DNA from: Serratia symbiotica
GTDB taxonomy: Bacteria; Pseudomonadota; Gammaproteobacteria; Enterobacterales; Enterobacteriaceae
DNA length: 64,000 nucleotides
Direction: 5' to 3'
Assembly (NCBI GenBank): GCA_900016775.1
Contig: LN890288.1
Coordinates: 310,001 to 374,000 of the forward strand
In this document: one piece after another, positions 3,972 to 63,215 of the stretch
Layout: every line of letters begins with the position of its first letter
How positions within the stretch are numbered: the first letter of the stretch is position 1
Made by a program: the position numbers and the translations under genes
Notes under the pieces: generated by a model
What the model was told of the DNA's origin: nothing
What the model saw: the letters and a program-made list of their open reading frames with translations, nothing else
The model's database searches: none

Positions 3972-4373
3972 TTATTTACCATTAAATATATTATAATGTT
4001 TAAAATCATTATTTATTACTTTATTAACTAAATTAGATATATATATACCATTTAAAAGTGTATTATCATAAAAAAAAGTTAATTTAGGTAATAAACGAAA
4101 ATACATCATTTTACCTAGTTGTCCTTGAATATAACCAGAAATATTTTGTAATATTTTAATTTTATTTTGAATTAAATCAATATTATTGTTTTTTACAAAT
4201 AAATTTAAAAAAGTAACATAAACCTTAGCATAAGTTAAATCATGAGAAATTTTTACATCTGATATAGTAATCATTCCAAGATTTAAATCTTTTAATTTAT
4301 ATTGTAAAATAATCGAAATTCCTTTTTTTATTTCTTTTGATATACGTTGAGTACGATATTTTTTTTTTTTCAT
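3972..4373 (-). CDS. rbfA: Ribosome-binding factor A
   Basis: A small KH-fold protein that binds the 30S subunit and helps mature the 5' end of 16S rRNA. The product is 133 residues, the same as E. coli. The N-terminus ([18 protein letters not shown]) and the [18 protein letters not shown] strand carry the family pattern. The usual acidic C-terminal tail is reduced and lysine/asparagine-rich, as expected from AT drift. It lies between infB and truB. Confidence 0.93.
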
Positions 4374-37309: not shown

Positions 37310-38511
37310 AACTAAAATTTTTTAGTTTTAAATTTAAAATATGGATAAAAAATTATATAATAAACTTACATGAAAATTCTATATATTCAATATATGATAA
37401 TACATTATTATGGTTAACAATTGGATTAATAATTATTGGTTTGATAATGATAACATCAGCTTCAATGCCGATTAGTGAACATTTAACAGGTGATCCTTTT
37501 TTATTTACTAAACGTAATATATTATATCTTATTTTAGCTTTTTTTTTATCTATAATAACATTACAAATTCCAATGATAATATGGCAAAATTATAGTAATA
37601 TAATGATTTTTATATCAATAATTATGCTAATATTTGTATTAATAATTAGTAATTATACAAATGGAGCGTCACGTTGGATTATATTAGGCTCATTACATAT
37701 TCAACCAAGTGAGTTATCTAAACTTTCTTTATTTTGTTATTTATCAAATTATTTAGCACGTAAAATTAAAGAAATACGTCATAATTTTTGGGATTTTTTA
37801 AAACCTATTGGAGTAATGTTAATTTTATCAATTTTATTATTAATACAACCTGATCTTGGAACTGTAATAGTATTATTTATTACTACATTAGCTATTTTGT
37901 TTTTAGCAGGAGTAAAAATATGGCAATTTTTATCAATTATTAGTTTAGGTTTATTTAGTGTAATATTATTAATTATAAAAGAACCTTATCGTATTCAACG
38001 AGTAATTTCTTTTTGGAATCCTTGGATAAATAAATTTGGTAGTGGATATCAATTAACTCAATCATTAATGGCATTTGGTCGTGGTAAATTATTAGGAGAA
38101 GGATTAGGTAATTCAATACAAAAATTAGAATATTTACCAGAAGCACATACTGATTTTATTTTTTCAATTATAGGTGAAGAATTAGGTTATATTGGTGTAT
38201 TTTTTATATTATGGATGATATTTTTTATTGCTTTTCGTGCAATGTCTATTGGTTATTACGCTTTATTAATTAATCAAAAATTTTCTGGTTTTTTAGCTTG
38301 TTCTATTGGTATATGGTTTAGTTTACAAACACTTATTAATGTAGGTGCTGTAGGTGGTTTATTACCTACTAAAGGGTTAACATTACCATTAATTAGTTAT
38401 GGTGGTTCAAGTTTTGTTGTTATGTTAACAGCTATTGTATTATTATTACGTATTGATTATGAGACTCGTATTACAAAAGTACAAGCATTTATAAAGAAAA
38501 AAAATGAATAA
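37306..38511 (+). CDS. ftsW: Septal peptidoglycan glycosyltransferase FtsW
   Basis: A SEDS-family polymerase that works with FtsI at the septum. The product is 401 residues (E. coli 414) with ten predicted membrane helices. [25 protein letters not shown] (here [18 protein letters not shown]), the catalytic-loop region [11 protein letters not shown] and [13 protein letters not shown] are conserved. The cytoplasmic N-terminus is shortened. It overlaps murD by 4 and murG by 8 bases. Confidence 0.96.
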
Positions 38512-39571
38512 AAAATCTACAAAACGTTTAATGATAATGGCTGGAGGAACTGGTGGACATATTTTTCCAGGAATAGTAATAGCACATTATTTAATAAAAA
38601 AAAATTGGAACATACGATGGATTGGTACTATAGATAGAATAGAAGCGGATTTAGTACCAAAAAATGGTATTAAAATTAGTTTTATTAATATTTCTAGTTT
38701 ACGTGGAAAAAAAATAAAACATAAATTATATACATTATTTAATATTTATAAAGCTATTAAACAAGCTAAATTAATTATAAATCAATTTCAACCAAATGTA
38801 GTACTTTGTATGGGAGGATATGTTTCTGGTCCTAGTGGATTAGCAGCATGGCTTTGTGGAATTCCAATTGTATTACATGAACAAAATAGTGTTGCTGGTT
38901 TTACAAACAAATGTCTATCTTATTTTGCTAAAACAATATTACAAGCTTTTCCTGGTGCTTTTTCAAATGCGAAAGTAGTAGGAAATCCATTACGTGATGA
39001 TATTTTATCTCTTAAAACACCTAATGAACGTTTTTCAGGACGAACTGGACCAATTCGTATTCTTGTAATGGGTGGTAGTCAAGGAGCTCAAATATTAAAT
39101 CAAGAAGTTGTTAAAATTGCAAAATATTTAGGTAATACTATTACACTTTGGCATCAAGTAGGTCAAGGTTCGTTGACAAAAATATTATTTGAATATAAAA
39201 AAATAGGACAAAAACAACATAAAGTCACTGAATTTATTGATGATATAGCTTCTGCTTATACTTGGGCAGATATAGTAATTTGTAGATCTGGTGCACTTAC
39301 TGTTAGTGAAATTACTGCAGTAGGTTTACCAGCAATTTTTGTACCATTTCAACATAAAGATCGTCAACAATATTGGAATGCTTTACCATTAGAAAAAGCT
39401 GGTGTAGCTAAAATTATAGAACAATCAAAATTTAAAGCTAATATAGTATGTAAATTATTAAAAAATTGGAAACGTCCAATTTTATTAGATATGGCTAAAA
39501 AATCATATTTAATAACTAAATCAAATTCTACATTACATATTATAAAAGAATTAATACAAGCTGCAAAATAA
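38504..39571 (+). CDS. murG: UDP-GlcNAc:lipid I GlcNAc transferase MurG
   Basis: Makes lipid II at the cytoplasmic face of the membrane. The product is 355 residues, as in E. coli. The G-loops [10 protein letters not shown] and GGSQGAQ, the donor-site segment [10 protein letters not shown] and [13 protein letters not shown] are all intact. It overlaps ftsW by 8 bases. An 80-base gap with a GAGG site separates it from murC. Confidence 0.96.
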
Positions 39572-39651: not shown

Positions 39652-42033
39652 ATGAATATAAAACCATTAAAAAAAATACATATTTTAATACCTAAAATGC
39701 GAAATATTAAACATATACATTTTATTGGTATTGGAGGTGTTGGAATGGGTGGTATAGCTGAAATATTAGTTAATGAAGGTTATAAAATTAGTGGATCTGA
39801 TTTATCATCTAATTTCATAATTAAAAAATTAAGTAAAATTGGAGTAATAATTTATTTAAATCATTGTTCAGAAAATATTTTAAATGCAAACGTAATAGTA
39901 ATATCTAGTGCTATTCCTAATAATAATCCAGAAATTATTGCTGCTCGTAAAGCATGTATTCCTATCATTCATCGAGCTGAAATGTTAGCAGAATTAATGC
40001 GTTTTCGTTATGGTATTGCAATTTCTGGTACACATGGTAAAACTACTACAACAGCAATTATATCAAGTATTTATACTGAAGCTGGTTTAAATCCAACATT
40101 TATTAACGGTGGATTAATAAAATCAATTAAAACTAATGCTAAATTAGGATCCAGTAATTATTTAATTGTAGAAGCTGATGAAAGTGATGCATCTTTTTTA
40201 CATTTAAAACCAATAGTAAGTATTGTTACCAATATTGAAGCTGATCATATGGATACTTATAAAAAAAATTTTGAAAATCTTAAAAAAACTTTTATAAATT
40301 TTTTACATAATCTTCCATTTTATGGTTATGCTATCATATGTATTGATGATCCTGTCTTAAAAGAATTATTACCATATATTAATCGTCATATAATTACTTA
40401 TGGTTTTAATTCTAATTCTGATGTATATATTACAAATTATTATCAATTAGGATATCAAGGATATTTTACTTTACATAGAAAAAATAAACCACAAATTATG
40501 GTAACTATTAATATACCAGGAAAACATAATGCATTAAATGCAGCAGCAGCAATAATATTAGCAACTGAAGAAGGTATTCATGATAAATATATTTTACATG
40601 CATTAAAAAATTTTCAAGGTATAACAAGACGTTTTGATTATCTTGGTAAATTTTCAATTTCTTCAATAAATAATAATATAAAAAATGTAATATTAATAGA
40701 TGATTATGGACATCATCCTACTGAAATTAATGTAACGTTAAAAACAGTTAGACATTGTTGGCCTAACAAACGTTTAGTTATGATTTTTCAACCTCATCGT
40801 TATACACGTACTCGTGATTTATATTATCAATTTATTGATACTTTATCAAAAGTAGATGTATTGTTAATGCTAGAGATATATGATGCAGGTGAAATACCTA
40901 TCTCTGGAATAAATAGTTATGAACTATGTAAAAATATTCGTAAACATAGTAAATTAAATCCAATTTTAATTTCTGATATTAATAATACACAAGAAATATT
41001 AATGAAATTATTAAAAACAAATGATTTATTATTAATTCAAGGTGCTGGTAATATAAGTAAAATAGCTCAAAAGTTAGCGAAATTAATACCACAAAAAAAA
41101 AATAAAAATATTATAAATGATAAAGTTGCCGTATTATTAGGTGGTACATCTTCTGAACGTGAAATTTCATTAAAATCTGGTACTGCTATATTAACTGGAT
41201 TACAAGAAATTGGTATAAATGCTTATGGCATTGATCCATATAATTTTCCAATAACTCAATTAAAAACTCAAGGATTTACTAAAGTTTTTATTGCATTACA
41301 TGGAAAAGGTGGTGAAGATGGTACTATACAAGGTATGTTAGAATTTCTTAATATACCTTACACTGGTAGTGGTGTTATGGCATCGGCATTAAGTATGGAT
41401 AAATGGCGAAGTAAGATATTATGGAAATTTATGGGTTTACCAGTAGCACCTTATATAAGTTTAAATAAAAAACAAATTATAAACAAAGAAAATGTAATAT
41501 TGTTGAACAATATTAAAAAAATTGGTTTACCATTAATTGTTAAACCTAATCAATCAGGTTCTAGTATTGGTATAACAAAAGTTTTTAAAAATGAGATACT
41601 TGAAAAAGCTATAATAAAAGCTTTTTCTTATGATAATAGAATTATTATAGAAAAATGTTTAAGTGGTCCAGAATATACTGTATCAATATTAGGTAAACAA
41701 GTACTACCATCTATTCGCATTCAACCATCTGGTGTATTATATGATTATAATGCAAAATATATATCAAATGATACTAAATATTTTTGTCCAAGTGGTCTTA
41801 ATAAAATACAAGAAAAAGAAATAAAAAAATTAGCATTATGCGCTTATAATGCATTAGATTGTCGTGGATTTGGACGTGTAGATATTATGAAAGATAATGA
41901 TGATAAATTTTATTTACTTGAAATAAATACTTCTCCAGGTATGACTAGTAGTAGTCTTATGCCTATGGCAGCACGTCAATTTGGAATAAATTTTAAAGAA
42001 CTTATATTAAAAATTTTTTTATTAATTAAATAA
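39652..42033 (+). CDS. murC-ddl: Fused MurC ligase and D-Ala-D-Ala ligase (MurC-Ddl)
   Basis: One 793-codon frame covers two enzymes that are separate in enterics. Residues 1 to about 483 are UDP-MurNAc:L-alanine ligase ([15 protein letters not shown] loop [19 protein letters not shown]). Residues from about 488 are D-Ala-D-Ala ligase ([42 protein letters not shown]). Combined length equals MurC (491) plus DdlB (306) of E. coli less a few. At the joint an A10 run spans 41093-41102, and the codon where DdlB would start is ATA (41113-41115), not ATG. An 11-A or 9-A transcript would stop a few codons later and give MurC alone. Ddl therefore seems to be made only as a fusion. Chlamydiae carry a comparable fusion. 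Confidence 0.93.
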
Positions 42034-42034
42034 T

Positions 42035-42850
42035 ATGAATCAAGCTGTTTTTAATATACATAATAATAAAATTAATAAAAAAATATATTATAATATTAAA
42101 CTACAAATAATAGGAATTTTATTATTTTTAATAATATTAGGAATAATGATATGGTACGGATTAGTAATATTTAACTGGATGAAAAATGATAATCATCAAC
42201 CATTTTTACAATTAATCATAACAGGAGAGCGTTATTATACTACTAATGATGACATTCGTGACTTAATTTTAAAACTAAATAAACCATTAACATTTATGAA
42301 ACAAGATATTTATGCTATACAAAAACAAATTCAAAAATTACCATGGATTAAACATATTAGTATACGTAAAAAATGGCCAAATGAATTAAAAATTCATTTA
42401 GTAGAATATACACCTGTTGTGTATTGGAATGATATTTATAAAATAGATATTAATGGGATTTCTTTTAAAGAACCAAAAGCATGGGTGAATAAAAAAACAC
42501 TACCTTTTCTTTATGGTCCTAAAGGTAGTGAAAAAGAAGTATTAGAAGGTTATCGTATTATGAATAATATGTTACATTCTAAAAACTATATATTAAAAAC
42601 AGTACTAATGAGGACACGTCATTCTTGGCAATTAACTTTAGATAATAATGCTAAATTAGAATTAGGACGTAATAATTATATAAATCGTTTACAACGATTT
42701 ATTGATCTCTATCCTATATTACAACAAAAAGAAAAAATAGAAAAAAAACGCATTAGTTATATAGATTTACGTTATGAATCAGGCGCCTCAGTAATTTGGG
42801 TTCCAGTACTTATTCATTCATTCATACCTGATACTCAACAAAAAAAATAA
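42035..42850 (+). CDS. ftsQ: Cell division protein FtsQ
   Basis: A bitopic divisome protein that binds FtsB and FtsL. The product is 271 residues (E. coli 276). A short cytoplasmic N-terminus and one membrane helix (about 25-48) are followed by a POTRA domain (ITGERYYTTNDDI, LPWIKHISIRKKWPNELKIHLVE) and the beta domain. It starts one base after the murC-ddl stop. Confidence 0.95.
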   Translation: MNQAVFNIHNNKINKKIYYNIKLQIIGILLFLIILGIMIWYGLVIFNWMKNDNHQPFLQLIITGERYYTTNDDIRDLILKLNKPLTFMKQDIYAIQKQIQKLPWIKHISIRKKWPNELKIHLVEYTPVVYWNDIYKIDINGISFKEPKAWVNKKTLPFLYGPKGSEKEVLEGYRIMNNMLHSKNYILKTVLMRTRHSWQLTLDNNAKLELGRNNYINRLQRFIDLYPILQQKEKIEKKRISYIDLRYESGASVIWVPVLIHSFIPDTQQKK

Positions 42851-58749: not shown

Positions 58750-59556
58750 TTATAATTTAGTAGAATTTTTCATATTTCGAATAAAAATAGAAATTTTATT
58801 TAACATTTTTGTTGGAGTAGAAAAATTTTTTTCAATAATGTTAATTATTGCTGAACCAGAAATTACACCAGATACACCAGATTTTAATATATTTTTTATT
58901 TGAGAAGATTTAGAGATACCAAATCCTTGAATTAAAGGAAATGAATTATATTTTTTAAATTTTTTAATAATATTTTCTAATGGAAATTTTATAAAATTTT
59001 CTATACCAGTCACACCAGCACGTGAAAGTAAATAAACATAACTATGACTATAAATAGAAATATTTTTTATTAAATTTTCATCAGCATTTGGTGGACAAAT
59101 AAAAATAGGAGAAATATTATAATTATTTGCTGAAAAACGAAATGGTTTAGATTCTTCAAATGGTATATCAGCAATAAGAACTGAATCTATTCCTATATTA
59201 TAACAAGTTTTATAAAATTCATGAATACCATAATTAAATACTAAATTAGCATATATTAATAATCCAATTGGAATAGTTGGATATTTTTTTCGAATTATTT
59301 GTAATAATTGAAAACACTTTATTGGTGTAATACCAATTTTTAATGCACGATATGATGAATTTTGAATGATTAAACCATCAGCTAATGGATCAGAAAAAGG
59401 AAATCCTAATTCTAATGCATCTGAACCTGATTCAATTAATACATCTATTAATTCTAATGATACTGTTATATTAGGATCTCCTAACATAACAAATGGAATA
59501 AAAGCACCTTCTTTTTTGTTTTTTAAATTTTCAAATAATTTTTTATAACGATCCAT
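58750..59556 (-). CDS. trpA: Tryptophan synthase alpha chain
   Basis: Cleaves indole-3-glycerol phosphate to indole and glyceraldehyde-3-phosphate. The product is 268 residues, as in E. coli. The catalytic Glu is in LELGFPFSDP and the Asp in LIADIPFEES; the phosphate site GFGISKSSQ is present. It overlaps trpB by 1 base (stop/start TAATG), so translation is coupled, which matches the alpha2-beta2 complex. Confidence 0.97.
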   Translation of the reverse strand: MDRYKKLFENLKNKKEGAFIPFVMLGDPNITVSLELIDVLIESGSDALELGFPFSDPLADGLIIQNSSYRALKIGITPIKCFQLLQIIRKKYPTIPIGLLIYANLVFNYGIHEFYKTCYNIGIDSVLIADIPFEESKPFRFSANNYNISPIFICPPNADENLIKNISIYSHSYVYLLSRAGVTGIENFIKFPLENIIKKFKKYNSFPLIQGFGISKSSQIKNILKSGVSGVISGSAIINIIEKNFSTPTKMLNKISIFIRNMKNSTKL

Positions 59557-60746
59557 TAAATTTCTCTCCGTGATTTTAAAATATTATAAACAGTAAATAT
59601 ATCTTTATCTCCACGGCCAGATAAATTAACAATTAAAATTTGTTCTTTTTTAGGATTATTATAAATCATTTTTAATGCATAAGCTAATGCATGAGAAGAT
59701 TCTAATGCTGGAATAATACCTTCATTACATGATAACATTTTAAAAGCATTTAATGCTTCATTATCAGTAATTGAAACATATTTTGCACGACCAATATCAT
59801 TTAAATAAGCATGTTGCGGTCCAACAGAAGGAAAATCTAATCCAGCTGAAATAGAGTAAGATTCTTTAATTTGACCTTCTGCAGTTTGCATTATAGGTGC
59901 TTTCATACCAAAATATATACCAAGACGACCGTGTTTAAGTGATGCACCATGTTTACCAGTAGTAATTCCAAGTCCAGCTGCTTCTACACCAATTAATTTA
60001 ACATTAACATCATCAATAAAATCTGAAAATATACCAATAGCATTAGAACCACCTCCAACACATGCTAAGATTGCATCCGGTAAACATCCTTCTTTTTTAA
60101 GTATTTGATCTTTAGTTTCTTTACCAATAATACGCTGAAATTCACGTACTATAGTTGGAAAAGGATGCGGACCTGCAGCAGTTCCAAGCATATAATGAGC
60201 TGTATGATAATTACTAGACCAATCACGTAATGCTTCATTACACGCATCTTTTAAAGTAGCAGAACCACTATGTACTGGAAGAACTTTAGCTCCCATTAAA
60301 CGCATACGAAATACATTTGGTGATTGACGTTCAATATCTTTTGATCCCATATATATACGACATTTTAAATTCAGTAACGCACAAACTAAAGCTGAAGCTA
60401 CACCATGTTGACCTGCACCAGTTTCTGCAATAATTTCAGTTTTACCCATTTTTATAGCTAATAAAGCTTGACCTAATACTTGATTAGTTTTATGCGCACC
60501 TCCATGTAATAAATCTTCACGTTTTAAATATAATCTAGTATTACTTCCAATAGTAAGATTTTTACATAATGTTAATGCTGTTGGACGACCCGCATAATTC
60601 TTTAATAAATTATTAAGTTGTTCTTGAAATTTAGAATCAATTTTAGAAGCTATAAAAGCCTCTTCTAATTGTTTTAATGCAGGCATTAAAATTTGAGGTA
60701 CATATTGACCACCAAATTCTCCAAAATATGAATTTAAAAACGTCAT
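59556..60746 (-). CDS. trpB: Tryptophan synthase beta chain
   Basis: A PLP enzyme that condenses indole with serine to tryptophan. The product is 396 residues (E. coli 397). The PLP lysine is in [12 protein letters not shown] and the phosphate loop is [18 protein letters not shown] and SGRGDKD are intact. It is among the least diverged proteins of the window. It lies 38 bases after trpCF. Confidence 0.97.
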
Positions 60747-60784
60747 GGTAATTCCTAATAATATTTATGATTAATTGATAGTAT

Positions 60785-62146
60785 TTAGTAAATACGTAAA
60801 ATATTAAAAATAGACGTTAAACGAACTATATCTTTAATTCCCGGATGACTTTCAACTCCAGAATTAAAATCTAAACCAATACTATTAAATTTTAAAGCTT
60901 CAATACAATTATTTTGGTTTAAACCTCCACTTAACATAGTATTACTAAGATCTTCATCTTTTAATATAGTCCAATCAAAACTTTTTCCAGTACCTCCACT
61001 TCCATTATCTAATAAAAATCGATCAACTTTTTTAAAATTTCTAGAAGGCAATTTATATGTAACACTTAGTACTTTCCAAATTTGACAATAAGTAGGTAAA
61101 ATAGAACGTAAAATATTAATATAATTTTGATTTTCTTCACCATGTAATTGTACAGCTTGTAAACCAAAACGTTCAACATTCTTGACTATAAATAATATTT
61201 TTTCATTACAAAATACACCAACATATTTTAATGGTATACCAGAAATAATTTTATCAATATGATTAACATTAATATAACGACATGAATGAGGAATAAAAAT
61301 TAATCCACCATAAATAGCACCTACTTTATAAGTAGATATGACATCTTCTTGTCGTGTTAAACCACATATTTTATTATCACCAAAAATTATTCTACAAACA
61401 GCAGTGCGTAAATCAGTTTCCTTCATTAATGCACTACCAATTAAAAAACCATTTACATAATGATTTAATTTACGAATTTGAGAATGTTTATCAATACCGG
61501 ATTCACTAATAATAGTTATTTCAGATGGAATATAAGGTGCTAATTGTATTGTTCGATTTAAATCAACACTTAAATCTTGTAGGTTACGATTATTTATACC
61601 AATTACTTTAGCTTTAAGAAAAATTGCTCTTTTTAATTCTTCTTCATTTATTATTTCAGTTAATACCCCCATATTGAGACTATGAGCTATTGATACAAAT
61701 TGATTATATTTTTCATTAGTTAATATTGACAACATTAATAATATAGCATCTGCTTTATAAATACGTGCTAAATAAATTTGATATGAATCAATGATAAAAT
61801 CTTTACATAATATTGGTTGTGTTACTGTTTTACTTATTAATGGAATAAAATCTATATTACCTTGAAAATATTTTTCTTCAGTTACAACTGAAATAATTGT
61901 AGCAAAATCTTTATAAATTAAAGAAATTTTTATAGGATCAAAATTTTTACAAATTAATCCTTTTGAAGGTGATGATTTTTTACATTCTAAAATAAATACA
62001 GGTTTAATACCTTTTAATGCTTGATAGAAATTACGTTCACTTTTTACAATATTACTTTTAAAACTAATTAATGATTGTTTTTTTTTTCTATTTATAATCC
62101 AATTTATTTTATCATTAATAATATTTGTAAGAATAGTTTTCTGCAT
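60785..62146 (-). CDS. trpCF: Bifunctional indole-3-glycerol-P synthase / PRA isomerase
   Basis: Carries out the two steps from phosphoribosylanthranilate to indole-3-glycerol phosphate. The product is 453 residues, the E. coli length. The N-terminal synthase barrel (ILECKKSSPSKG, CKDFIIDSYQIYLAR, ISESGI) is followed by the isomerase barrel (CGLTRQEDV, VQLHGEE, LDFNSGVE). I chose the ATG at 62144-62146 (MQKTILTNI), which matches the family start and lies 4 bases after the trpD stop; an in-frame ATG 17 codons earlier would run into trpD. The C-F fusion is typical of Enterobacterales. Confidence 0.96.
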   Translation of the reverse strand: MQKTILTNIINDKINWIINRKKKQSLISFKSNIVKSERNFYQALKGIKPVFILECKKSSPSKGLICKNFDPIKISLIYKDFATIISVVTEEKYFQGNIDFIPLISKTVTQPILCKDFIIDSYQIYLARIYKADAILLMLSILTNEKYNQFVSIAHSLNMGVLTEIINEEELKRAIFLKAKVIGINNRNLQDLSVDLNRTIQLAPYIPSEITIISESGIDKHSQIRKLNHYVNGFLIGSALMKETDLRTAVCRIIFGDNKICGLTRQEDVISTYKVGAIYGGLIFIPHSCRYINVNHIDKIISGIPLKYVGVFCNEKILFIVKNVERFGLQAVQLHGEENQNYINILRSILPTYCQIWKVLSVTYKLPSRNFKKVDRFLLDNGSGGTGKSFDWTILKDEDLSNTMLSGGLNQNNCIEALKFNSIGLDFNSGVESHPGIKDIVRLTSIFNILRIY

Positions 62147-62150
62147 AATT

Positions 62151-63149
62151 TTATTTTCTTTTTGAAAGTTTAGTAATATACATATAAGCTTTTCCACTAT
62201 AAATAATATCTAAGGCTTTTTGCGTATTTTCAATTAAATCTTCATTTCCAAATAATTTTAATAATAATGCTACATTAGCAGCTATTGCTGAAATATGTGC
62301 TATATTACCTTTACCTTTTAATAACTGAATAATAATATTACAATTTTCTTTAGGTGTACCACCTTTTAAAGATTTTAATGGATAACTTTTTAATCCAAAA
62401 GATTGTGGTGTTAATGAATAACGTATAATAATATTATCTTTAATTTCAGCTACTTGAGTAGTAGAATGAATAGATACTTCATCCATTCCTCCTCCATGTA
62501 CAATTGCTGCACGTTGATATCCTAATACACGAACAGCTTCAGCAATTGGTAATATTAACTTTGAGCTATAAACACCAATTAATGCTAATGGAGGGCGTGC
62601 TGGGTTAATTAATGGTCCTAATATATTAAATAATGTACGAGTTTTTAATTGTTGACGTACAATCATTACATGACGAAAACCACTATAATAGTGTGGTGCA
62701 AAAAGAAAACAAATACCAATATGATCTAATATTTTACGTGCTTCTTGTGAAGAAAGATTTAAAGGAATACCTAATTCTGTTAATAAATCACTAGAACCAG
62801 AACGACTAGAAATACCTTGATTTCCATGTTTTACAATTTTTACACCACATGCAGCCGCAACAAAAGCACTAGCAGTAGAAATATTAATACTATTTGTACC
62901 GTCAGAACCAGTTCCTACAATATCAGCAAATAAATAATCTGGACGTGGAAAAGGTTTTGCTTGAGCTAATAATGCTTTAACAGCACCAAGAATTTCATCT
63001 AATTTTTCTCCTCGAATTTTCATACTAATTAATACTGCAGCAAGTTGACTGTCTTTTAATTTTCCATGAACTATAGCAGTAAATAATTGTTGGCTTTCTT
63101 TTTGGTTTATCGACTTAGCACAATATAATTTTTCTAAAATAACTTGCAT
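62151..63149 (-). CDS. trpD: Anthranilate phosphoribosyltransferase (free-standing)
   Basis: Transfers phosphoribosyl from PRPP to anthranilate. The product is 332 residues from the ATG at 63147-63149 (MQVILEKLY), which has AAGGA 9 bases upstream. A TTG nine codons earlier is a weaker choice. The PRPP/anthranilate motifs [29 protein letters not shown] and [14 protein letters not shown] are intact. E. coli has TrpG fused in front; here TrpD stands alone, as in Serratia and Yersinia. Upstream lies only a probable trpG stub and then purB, so trpE and trpG are not next to it. Confidence 0.96.
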
Positions 63150-63215
63150 CGTCGTTTTCCTTAATAATTTTACCAAAACTTAAAATGTACTTACTAAAGT
63201 ATATTTTAATTTCAT

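Follow-up and report, generated by a model that had tools for sequence, protein, structure and literature searches.

A lineage-specific MurC-Ddl fusion, very probably genuine, in an AT-rich Enterobacterales genome of reduced size

The bifunctional MurC-Ddl protein of chlamydiae (NF011171 / PRK14573) combines the same two enzymes, in the same order and within one protein, as the gene analysed here. Such a fusion is reported to occur "in many Chlamydiae" (PMC5814848), and the Ddl activity of the chlamydial protein is described as dependent on the fused form (McCoy and Maurelli 2005, cited in PMC4803751). Neighbouring genes of the dcw cluster may also be joined in frame with other partners, e.g. 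MurB/C of Verrucomicrobium (PMC4803751). A second group of related systems comprises genes that contain long A runs. Precedents for slippage have been described in Buchnera and Blochmannia (PMC5009743, PMC3017870, PMC6260861), and for Blochmannia vafer 153 coding poly-A tracts of at least 9 residues are given (PMC3017870). In the poly(A) rescue reported for these AT-rich insect symbionts, slippage on a long A run in a cell-wall or other gene alters the product (Tamas 2008 and Wernegreen 2010, cited in PMC3017870 and PMC5009743). In dnaX, which encodes tau and gamma, one gene with an A run and an early stop after the shift gives rise to two protein lengths. This gene is mentioned in PMC3017870 and PMC5009743.

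In this study we analysed a 64,000-nucleotide stretch of DNA (the window) that carries murC and ddl in a single frame. It is very probable that the fusion is real, specific to its lineage and set in an AT-rich genome of reduced size. It was probably made by an indel and then locked by the loss of the ddl start, and slippage would give a by-product.

Organization of the fused gene

The window originates from genome G000, a single contig of 650,317 bp, which we assign to the Enterobacterales on the basis of the nearest proteins among the matches listed. Its G+C content is 22.7%, while that of the 344 kb examined (the window and 14 further stretches) is 20.9%. An earlier note on this DNA had claimed that one continuous frame joins a complete MurC and a complete Ddl, and this was borne out: the frame comprises 793 codons, and the profiles of both enzymes are matched nearly end to end (Table 1). 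The match to the NCBIfam murC model TIGR01082 covers residues 21-475 (profile positions 1-448 of 449; 559.5 bits, cut-off 335.1), whereas Ddl is recognized by NF002378 (residues 489-788; 395.9 bits, cut-off 243) and TIGR01205 (336.8 bits, cut-off 245.65). The closest solved structures are MurC 4hv4 (aligned residues 1-484) and DdlB chains.

Table 1. Positions, within the window, of the fused gene, its parts and its neighbours.
Feature	Position	Strand	Description and basis
MurC-Ddl fusion ORF, 793 aa	39652..42033	+	ATG start, TAA stop; ORF list, family and Pfam domain matches
MurC part, residues 1-478	39652..41085	+	TIGR01082 match; full length compared with solved MurC structures
Linker, residues 479-488	41086..41115	+	from MurC tail and ddl start region; model pLDDT <50
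A10 run	41093..41102	+	fusion frame kept at A7, A10 and A13 only (lengths 6-14)
TAA read in A11 form	41103..41105	+	product end MurC...QKKK
TAA read in A9 form	41114..41116	+	product end MurC...QKKIKIL
ATA at ancestral ddl start codon	41113..41115	+	alignment to DdlB start
Out-of-frame TGA, 5 bases behind old ddl start	41118..41120	+	probable relic murC stop
Ddl (DdlB type) part, residues 489-793	41116..42030	+	NF002378 match
Upstream ORF, putative murG	38504..39571	+	ORF list, name by eye
Downstream ORF, putative ftsQ	42035..42850	+	ORF list, name by eye

The protein contains MurC motifs, including DDYGHHPTE, which we take to be characteristic of this enzyme. Within the Ddl part, 16 of 16 catalytic positions (K215 and Y216 among them) are identical to those of the DdlB half of protein P0003, which served as a stand-in for E. 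coli DdlB; the positions were selected using what we assume to be the E. coli DdlB numbering. The neighbours of the fusion ORF in the dcw cluster are open frames, presumably murG (upstream) and ftsQ (downstream), and by eye the cluster appears to follow the usual dcw order.

A public protein, P0001 (793 aa), is listed as 100% identical to the product of the window, yet one residue is different, the I at position 616 being replaced by T in P0001; the linker is identical. It is encoded on a contig of 650,445 bp, compared with 650,317 bp for G000; because of the different residue and the different contig, P0001 was taken, at the protein level, for a second assembly or strain. An AlphaFold2 model of P0001 (one residue off the window; 25 sequences) has a mean pLDDT of 78.9 and consists of two folded parts, with pLDDT below 50 at linker residues 479-488 and in seven other short segments. 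Since the pTM is just 0.45, the relative arrangement of the MurC and Ddl parts is not given by the model, in which the two probably sit on a loose tether.

No second Ddl was detected in the 650,317-bp genome by a protein search combined with the TIGR01205 profile. Two places were matched by the fusion protein, namely itself and a second Mur-ligase ORF (judged by eye to be murD), and one by the profile, which found a match in 14 of 14 control genomes. Searches of this kind detected the separate DdlA-type ligases of many relatives at ~33-42% identity, so an extra one in G000 would probably have been seen. Moreover, no in-frame ATG, GTG or TTG is located between residue 451 (inside MurC) and residue 562, which is 74 residues into Ddl and, as we assume, beyond its first catalytic residue. 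The suggestion of the earlier note that Ddl is obtainable only as part of the fusion gains support from these sequences: a separate ddl elsewhere in the genome was looked for and not found, and no ordinary start lies between the nearest two, at residues 451 and 562.

The murC-ddl junction in related genomes

The junction was inspected in 70 sequences (six shorter or duplicate copies having been dropped first), of which 65 have a Ddl match and 5 do not. The 64 comparators among these 65 are top matches and hand-picked small genomes rather than a random sample. The ancestral ddl codon is ATG or GTG in 54 of the 64, and an ATG is placed 3-24 bases upstream, in frame, in 10. The window contains no ddl start (ATG/GTG) at the ancestral site or within 90 bases, compared with 64 of 64 comparators that have one. 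Two reduced genomes, G145 (L151) and G068 (L173), carry ATA at the old ddl start together with an in-frame ATG 6 or 9 bases upstream.

In the sister genome G001, murC and ddl are separate, and both AAGGA and ATG are kept. As G001 is unfused, the origin of the fusion looks separate from that of the chlamydial one. The relation between the two frames was determined for 47 comparator junctions (two duplicates and the window being left out). Relative to murC, ddl is in the +1 frame in 27 of them (including G001) and in the +2 frame in 4, while in 16 both genes use one frame and are separated by a stop. The 16 include G142, the closest genome over both domains, whose genes have this same-frame layout with an intervening stop. 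In 20 of the 27 +1-frame comparators murC ends 5 bases past the ancestral ddl start, and the TGA of the window occupies this same position, although Asp-Lys codons favour the triplet. At the place of the window's A run, several relatives have an A/G-rich ribosome-binding stretch (e.g. AAAAAAGAGGAGGAG in L006).

It is probable that a net -1 indel in this A/G-rich stretch, the former ribosome-binding site of ddl, put murC and ddl in one frame. The ddl start (ATG to ATA) and the binding site are gone, and we infer that they decayed after the fusion. Their loss locks the fusion in, since ddl would have no ordinary start if a separate murC were restored. A lost stop codon, instead of an indel, is a possible origin as well, because G142 has the same-frame layout. 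The main product would be one protein of 793 residues with both active sites and a flexible linker, predicted from its families to make UDP-MurNAc-L-Ala and D-Ala-D-Ala for one pathway. If RNA polymerase or the ribosome slips on A10, a certain amount of free, complete MurC would be formed in addition, as a by-product that is not regulated.

The chlamydial bifunctional MurC/Ddl model NF011171 (809 positions) was matched in two stretches (the best 17-514) and missed its cut-off, with 475.3 bits against 1015. In contrast to the chlamydial fusion, the named relatives of the MurC part among the matches listed are mostly enterobacterial (~60-68% identical). Since the score is below the cut-off, the fusion is probably convergent with that of chlamydiae. 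The chlamydial comparison drawn in the earlier note thus holds as an analogy and fails as family membership.

We also searched for further fusions. At the family level, 340 of 392 genomes were matched at 1e-100; among the matches listed, which reach ~1e-206 so that weaker fusions could be hidden, 19 span both domains as a single match, 18 of these contain a stop and the window's is the only stop-free one. Sixty-nine small genomes (0.2-1.8 Mb, chosen from those matching) yielded, in a complete listing, 9 single matches spanning both domains, all 9 with stops. At the order level (148 genomes, partly the same as the others), 22 genomes were matched at 1e-190 and 4 single matches span both domains, the window's alone being stop-free among those listed. 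Genomes G043 and G416, for which open frames of more than 800 aa were listed, were rejected as further fusions, as both have a stop between murC and ddl. G217, which we take to be Buchnera-like, was rejected too: its murC has a stop ahead of the greater part of ddl, and ddl itself is interrupted. This locus (L137, G217:C1:231000-234000, genome of ~0.6 Mb) has a frameshift at an A10 run inside ddl and is thus a classic case of a broken gene, here in the same gene as the one fused in the window. Two scans of genome contigs, from which records of the window itself or very close to it may be missing, revealed no relatives of the fusion and no close relative of the sister's MurC, 57% identity being the best of the 80 loci kept, which did not enter the other comparisons. 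No report of a murC and ddlB fusion in a symbiont was encountered in the open-licence papers searched.

A protein search with the Ddl half, under length limits that leave out free Ddl, gave 1191 matches, the best 120 of which were examined. Among the matches listed there are the MurC-Ddl proteins P0002, P0003, P0004, P0059, P0152 and P0178, together with P0161, which is partial; P0045 is a further partial MurC-Ddl protein. Many MurB-Ddl, some Ddl-FtsQ and one MurG-Ddl protein were also listed, the partner names being our assignments from Pfam content; these join adjacent cell-wall or division genes in frame, as in the window, with other partners. Some of the listed MurC-Ddl proteins may be sequencing errors. 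By eye, (i) P0152 and P0178 have an apparent frameshift inside MurC, (ii) P0003 and P0004 keep Met at the Ddl start, (iii) P0059 keeps Met upstream of the Ddl start, and (iv) P0002, filed under Drosophila immigrans and probably a bacterial contamination of an insect assembly, is the product of a deletion that brought MurC and Ddl together, with a shared KIA motif as the joint.

The A10 tract at the joint

The codons of the joint are CCA CAA AAA AAA AAT AAA AAT ATT ATA AAT GAT AAA GTT. The tract consists of exactly ten A residues, and ATA occupies the place of the DdlB start, both as the earlier note had stated. The consequences of other tract lengths were computed for 6-14 residues: A8, A11 and A14 lead to a stop right after the lysines, and A6, A9 and A12 to four more residues (IKIL) followed by a stop. 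The immediate stop with 11 A (Q-K-K-K) and the stop within a few codons with 9 A, predicted previously, were both reproduced, and each leaves a full-length MurC.

The 241 ORFs of the 344 kb contain 24 A runs of at least 10 residues, compared with a mean of 27.2 (sd 2.5) obtained by synonymous shuffling; runs of at least 8 are in slight excess (287 compared with 265.2, sd 6.1). A10 is present in 32 of 1187 overlapping 12-codon windows that, like the joint, have six Lys/Asn. Of 108 tracts of A9 or longer, 99 could be scored, and 27 of the 99 meet a stop within 8 codons after both a +1 and a -1 shift. The A10 tract and the quick stops after a shift are ordinary for this genome, and the unusual feature of the tract is its position at the boundary of two complete enzymes. 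The longest run in the A10 listing (26 A) is located at G000:C1:620184-620209, and an A12 in coding sense lies right behind the start codon of a minus-strand ORF of the window (run at 4359-4370, ORF at 3972-4373).

No stimulatory RNA structure was found behind the A run (z = 0.43; an equal or better fold was obtained with 125 of 200 shuffled sequences), and a structured frameshift signal at this place was rejected. An Rfam search gave one match, far below the gathering score and on the opposite strand. The frameshift of dnaX is programmed and conserved. As in that gene, the run is long enough to slip and a shift leads to an early stop, in the window in both shifted frames; on the other hand, no stimulatory structure and no sign of conservation were found in the window, and A runs of at least 10 are not enriched. 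In the Buchnera and Blochmannia cases a broken genomic frame is mended by slippage (cited in PMC3017870 and PMC5009743), whereas here the genomic frame is intact with ten A, and a slip would cut the product back to MurC.

Complete MurC would be obtained from transcripts with 9 or 11 A, or if the ribosome slipped by -1. Slippage on A10 that gives free MurC is plausible, from the sequence, as a by-product. It is unsupported as a selected switch, because the tract is expected from composition and no stimulatory structure is present; for the same reasons, the idea that the tract regulates the ratio of the two products found no support. Only tentatively, and as a rather unlikely case, would we propose that the A run that made the fusion also un-fuses part of the output, giving MurC-Ddl and MurC, and hence an excess of MurC over Ddl that needs no regulator. 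As part of this tentative reading, the joining of frames at homopolymers with subsequent start-codon decay could be a general route to fused enzymes in AT-rich symbionts.

D-alanine supply, alternative readings and significance

No alanine racemase was found in G000 with TIGR00492 (which matched 9 of 14 control genomes) or PF01168 (11 of 14), so that the supply of the Ddl substrate is itself uncertain. PF01168 likewise gave no match in the sister genome G001, in G142 or in G029, and was found in G071 and G160 (2 of 6 genomes searched). As G001 and G142 are unfused, the fusion and the absence of the racemase are not tied here. GlyA and MurI are present in G000, and the MetC-type family gave a sub-threshold match only. 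The absence of alanine racemase is common to G000 and the Chlamydiaceae, which are reported to be without Alr and to have kept GlyA (PMC3935232). Host-supplied D-Ala would be an alternative source, by analogy with Buchnera, into whose walls a D-alanine probe fed to the host is reported to be built (PMC9116674). At 58750-63176 (minus strand) the window also has near full-length matches to trpD, trpCF, trpB and trpA, which suggests a role in tryptophan supply to the host.

Homopolymers are a common error type on some platforms, and two assemblies could share a systematic homopolymer error, in which case the DNA would have 9 or 11 A and separate murC and ddl genes. We regard this as extremely unlikely: P0001 has an identical linker, and with 8, 9, 11 or 12 A ddl would still have no ATG, GTG or TTG, its frame being open for just 24-54 bases upstream, unlike in the 64 comparators. 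In addition, a coding-frame scan (uncalibrated on known frameshifts) of the 344 kb, whose ORFs hold the 24 runs of A10 or longer, recorded 58 direct frame changes, 4 of them without a nearby start, and revealed no clear homopolymer frameshift artefacts: in 3 of these 4 one segment runs antisense to an ORF of the list, and the fourth is a possible candidate. A tract-length error that hides a normal gene pair, the case against the fusion that the earlier note had raised itself, is thus unlikely. The trpD/trpC pair (62151-63176 and 60785-62197) was considered as an assembly frameshift and rejected, as these are two distinct genes, both of which match a family of their own almost end to end. The chance is equally slight that the sequence is correct and free Ddl is made from an ATA (41113) or ATT (41110) start, with MurC supplied by the fusion or the A11 form. 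Both codons are listed as rare bacterial starts (translation table 11), and the ATA is exactly at the ancestral start; on the other hand, both other loci with ATA at this site (L151 and L173) have their ATG 6 or 9 bases upstream, and an SD-like word is absent from the 17 bases examined upstream. The latter is weak evidence, as such words precede just 69 of 205 first-ATG ORFs in G000 (compared with 105 of 1418 internal ATGs).

A gene with two needed products, in which slippage on A10 gives both the fusion and free MurC and selection keeps the tract as in dnaX, appears distinctly improbable. It would fit the stops that A9 and A11 each place just behind a complete MurC, and the inclusion of Buchnera mur genes (A10) among the slippage cases of one report (PMC6260861). 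In Buchnera transcripts, insertions and deletions are given as 1.3e-5 and 1.75e-5 per transcribed base with an exponential rise with run length, which is stated for single-base insertions in homopolymers (PMC5574713). Yet that transcriptome report describes no transcription error restoring a frame (PMC5574713), and for E. coli RNA polymerase deletions are reported to have been absent from the poly(A) tracts assayed (PMC6260861). The lack of excess of long A runs and of a stable RNA structure behind this one also speak against selection for two products, and no other fused relative was found in which conservation of the tract could be checked. It is very unlikely, finally, that the locus is being lost, with a Ddl that has become superfluous without alanine racemase and a fusion that is a decaying remnant. 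Although neither profile detected Alr/DadX and no MetC-type match exceeded the cut-off, the Ddl part is complete with all 16 catalytic positions, there is one amino-acid difference from P0001, and the dcw neighbours (named by eye) are open frames. MurI and GlyA are present as well, and the GlyA of Chlamydia pneumoniae is reported to racemise alanine (PMC3935232).

The genuine MurC-Ddl fusion, which we prefer to these alternatives, would mean that an enzyme fusion known best from Chlamydiae apparently arose independently in another reduced and probably host-dependent genome, likewise one in which no alanine racemase was detected. It points to a cheap route to gene fusion in shrinking genomes, i.e. 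a one-base shift in an A run followed by the decay of a start codon that has become dispensable. The locus would also allow the importance of transcript slippage to be assessed cleanly, as a slip here would yield a complete enzyme and not scrap.
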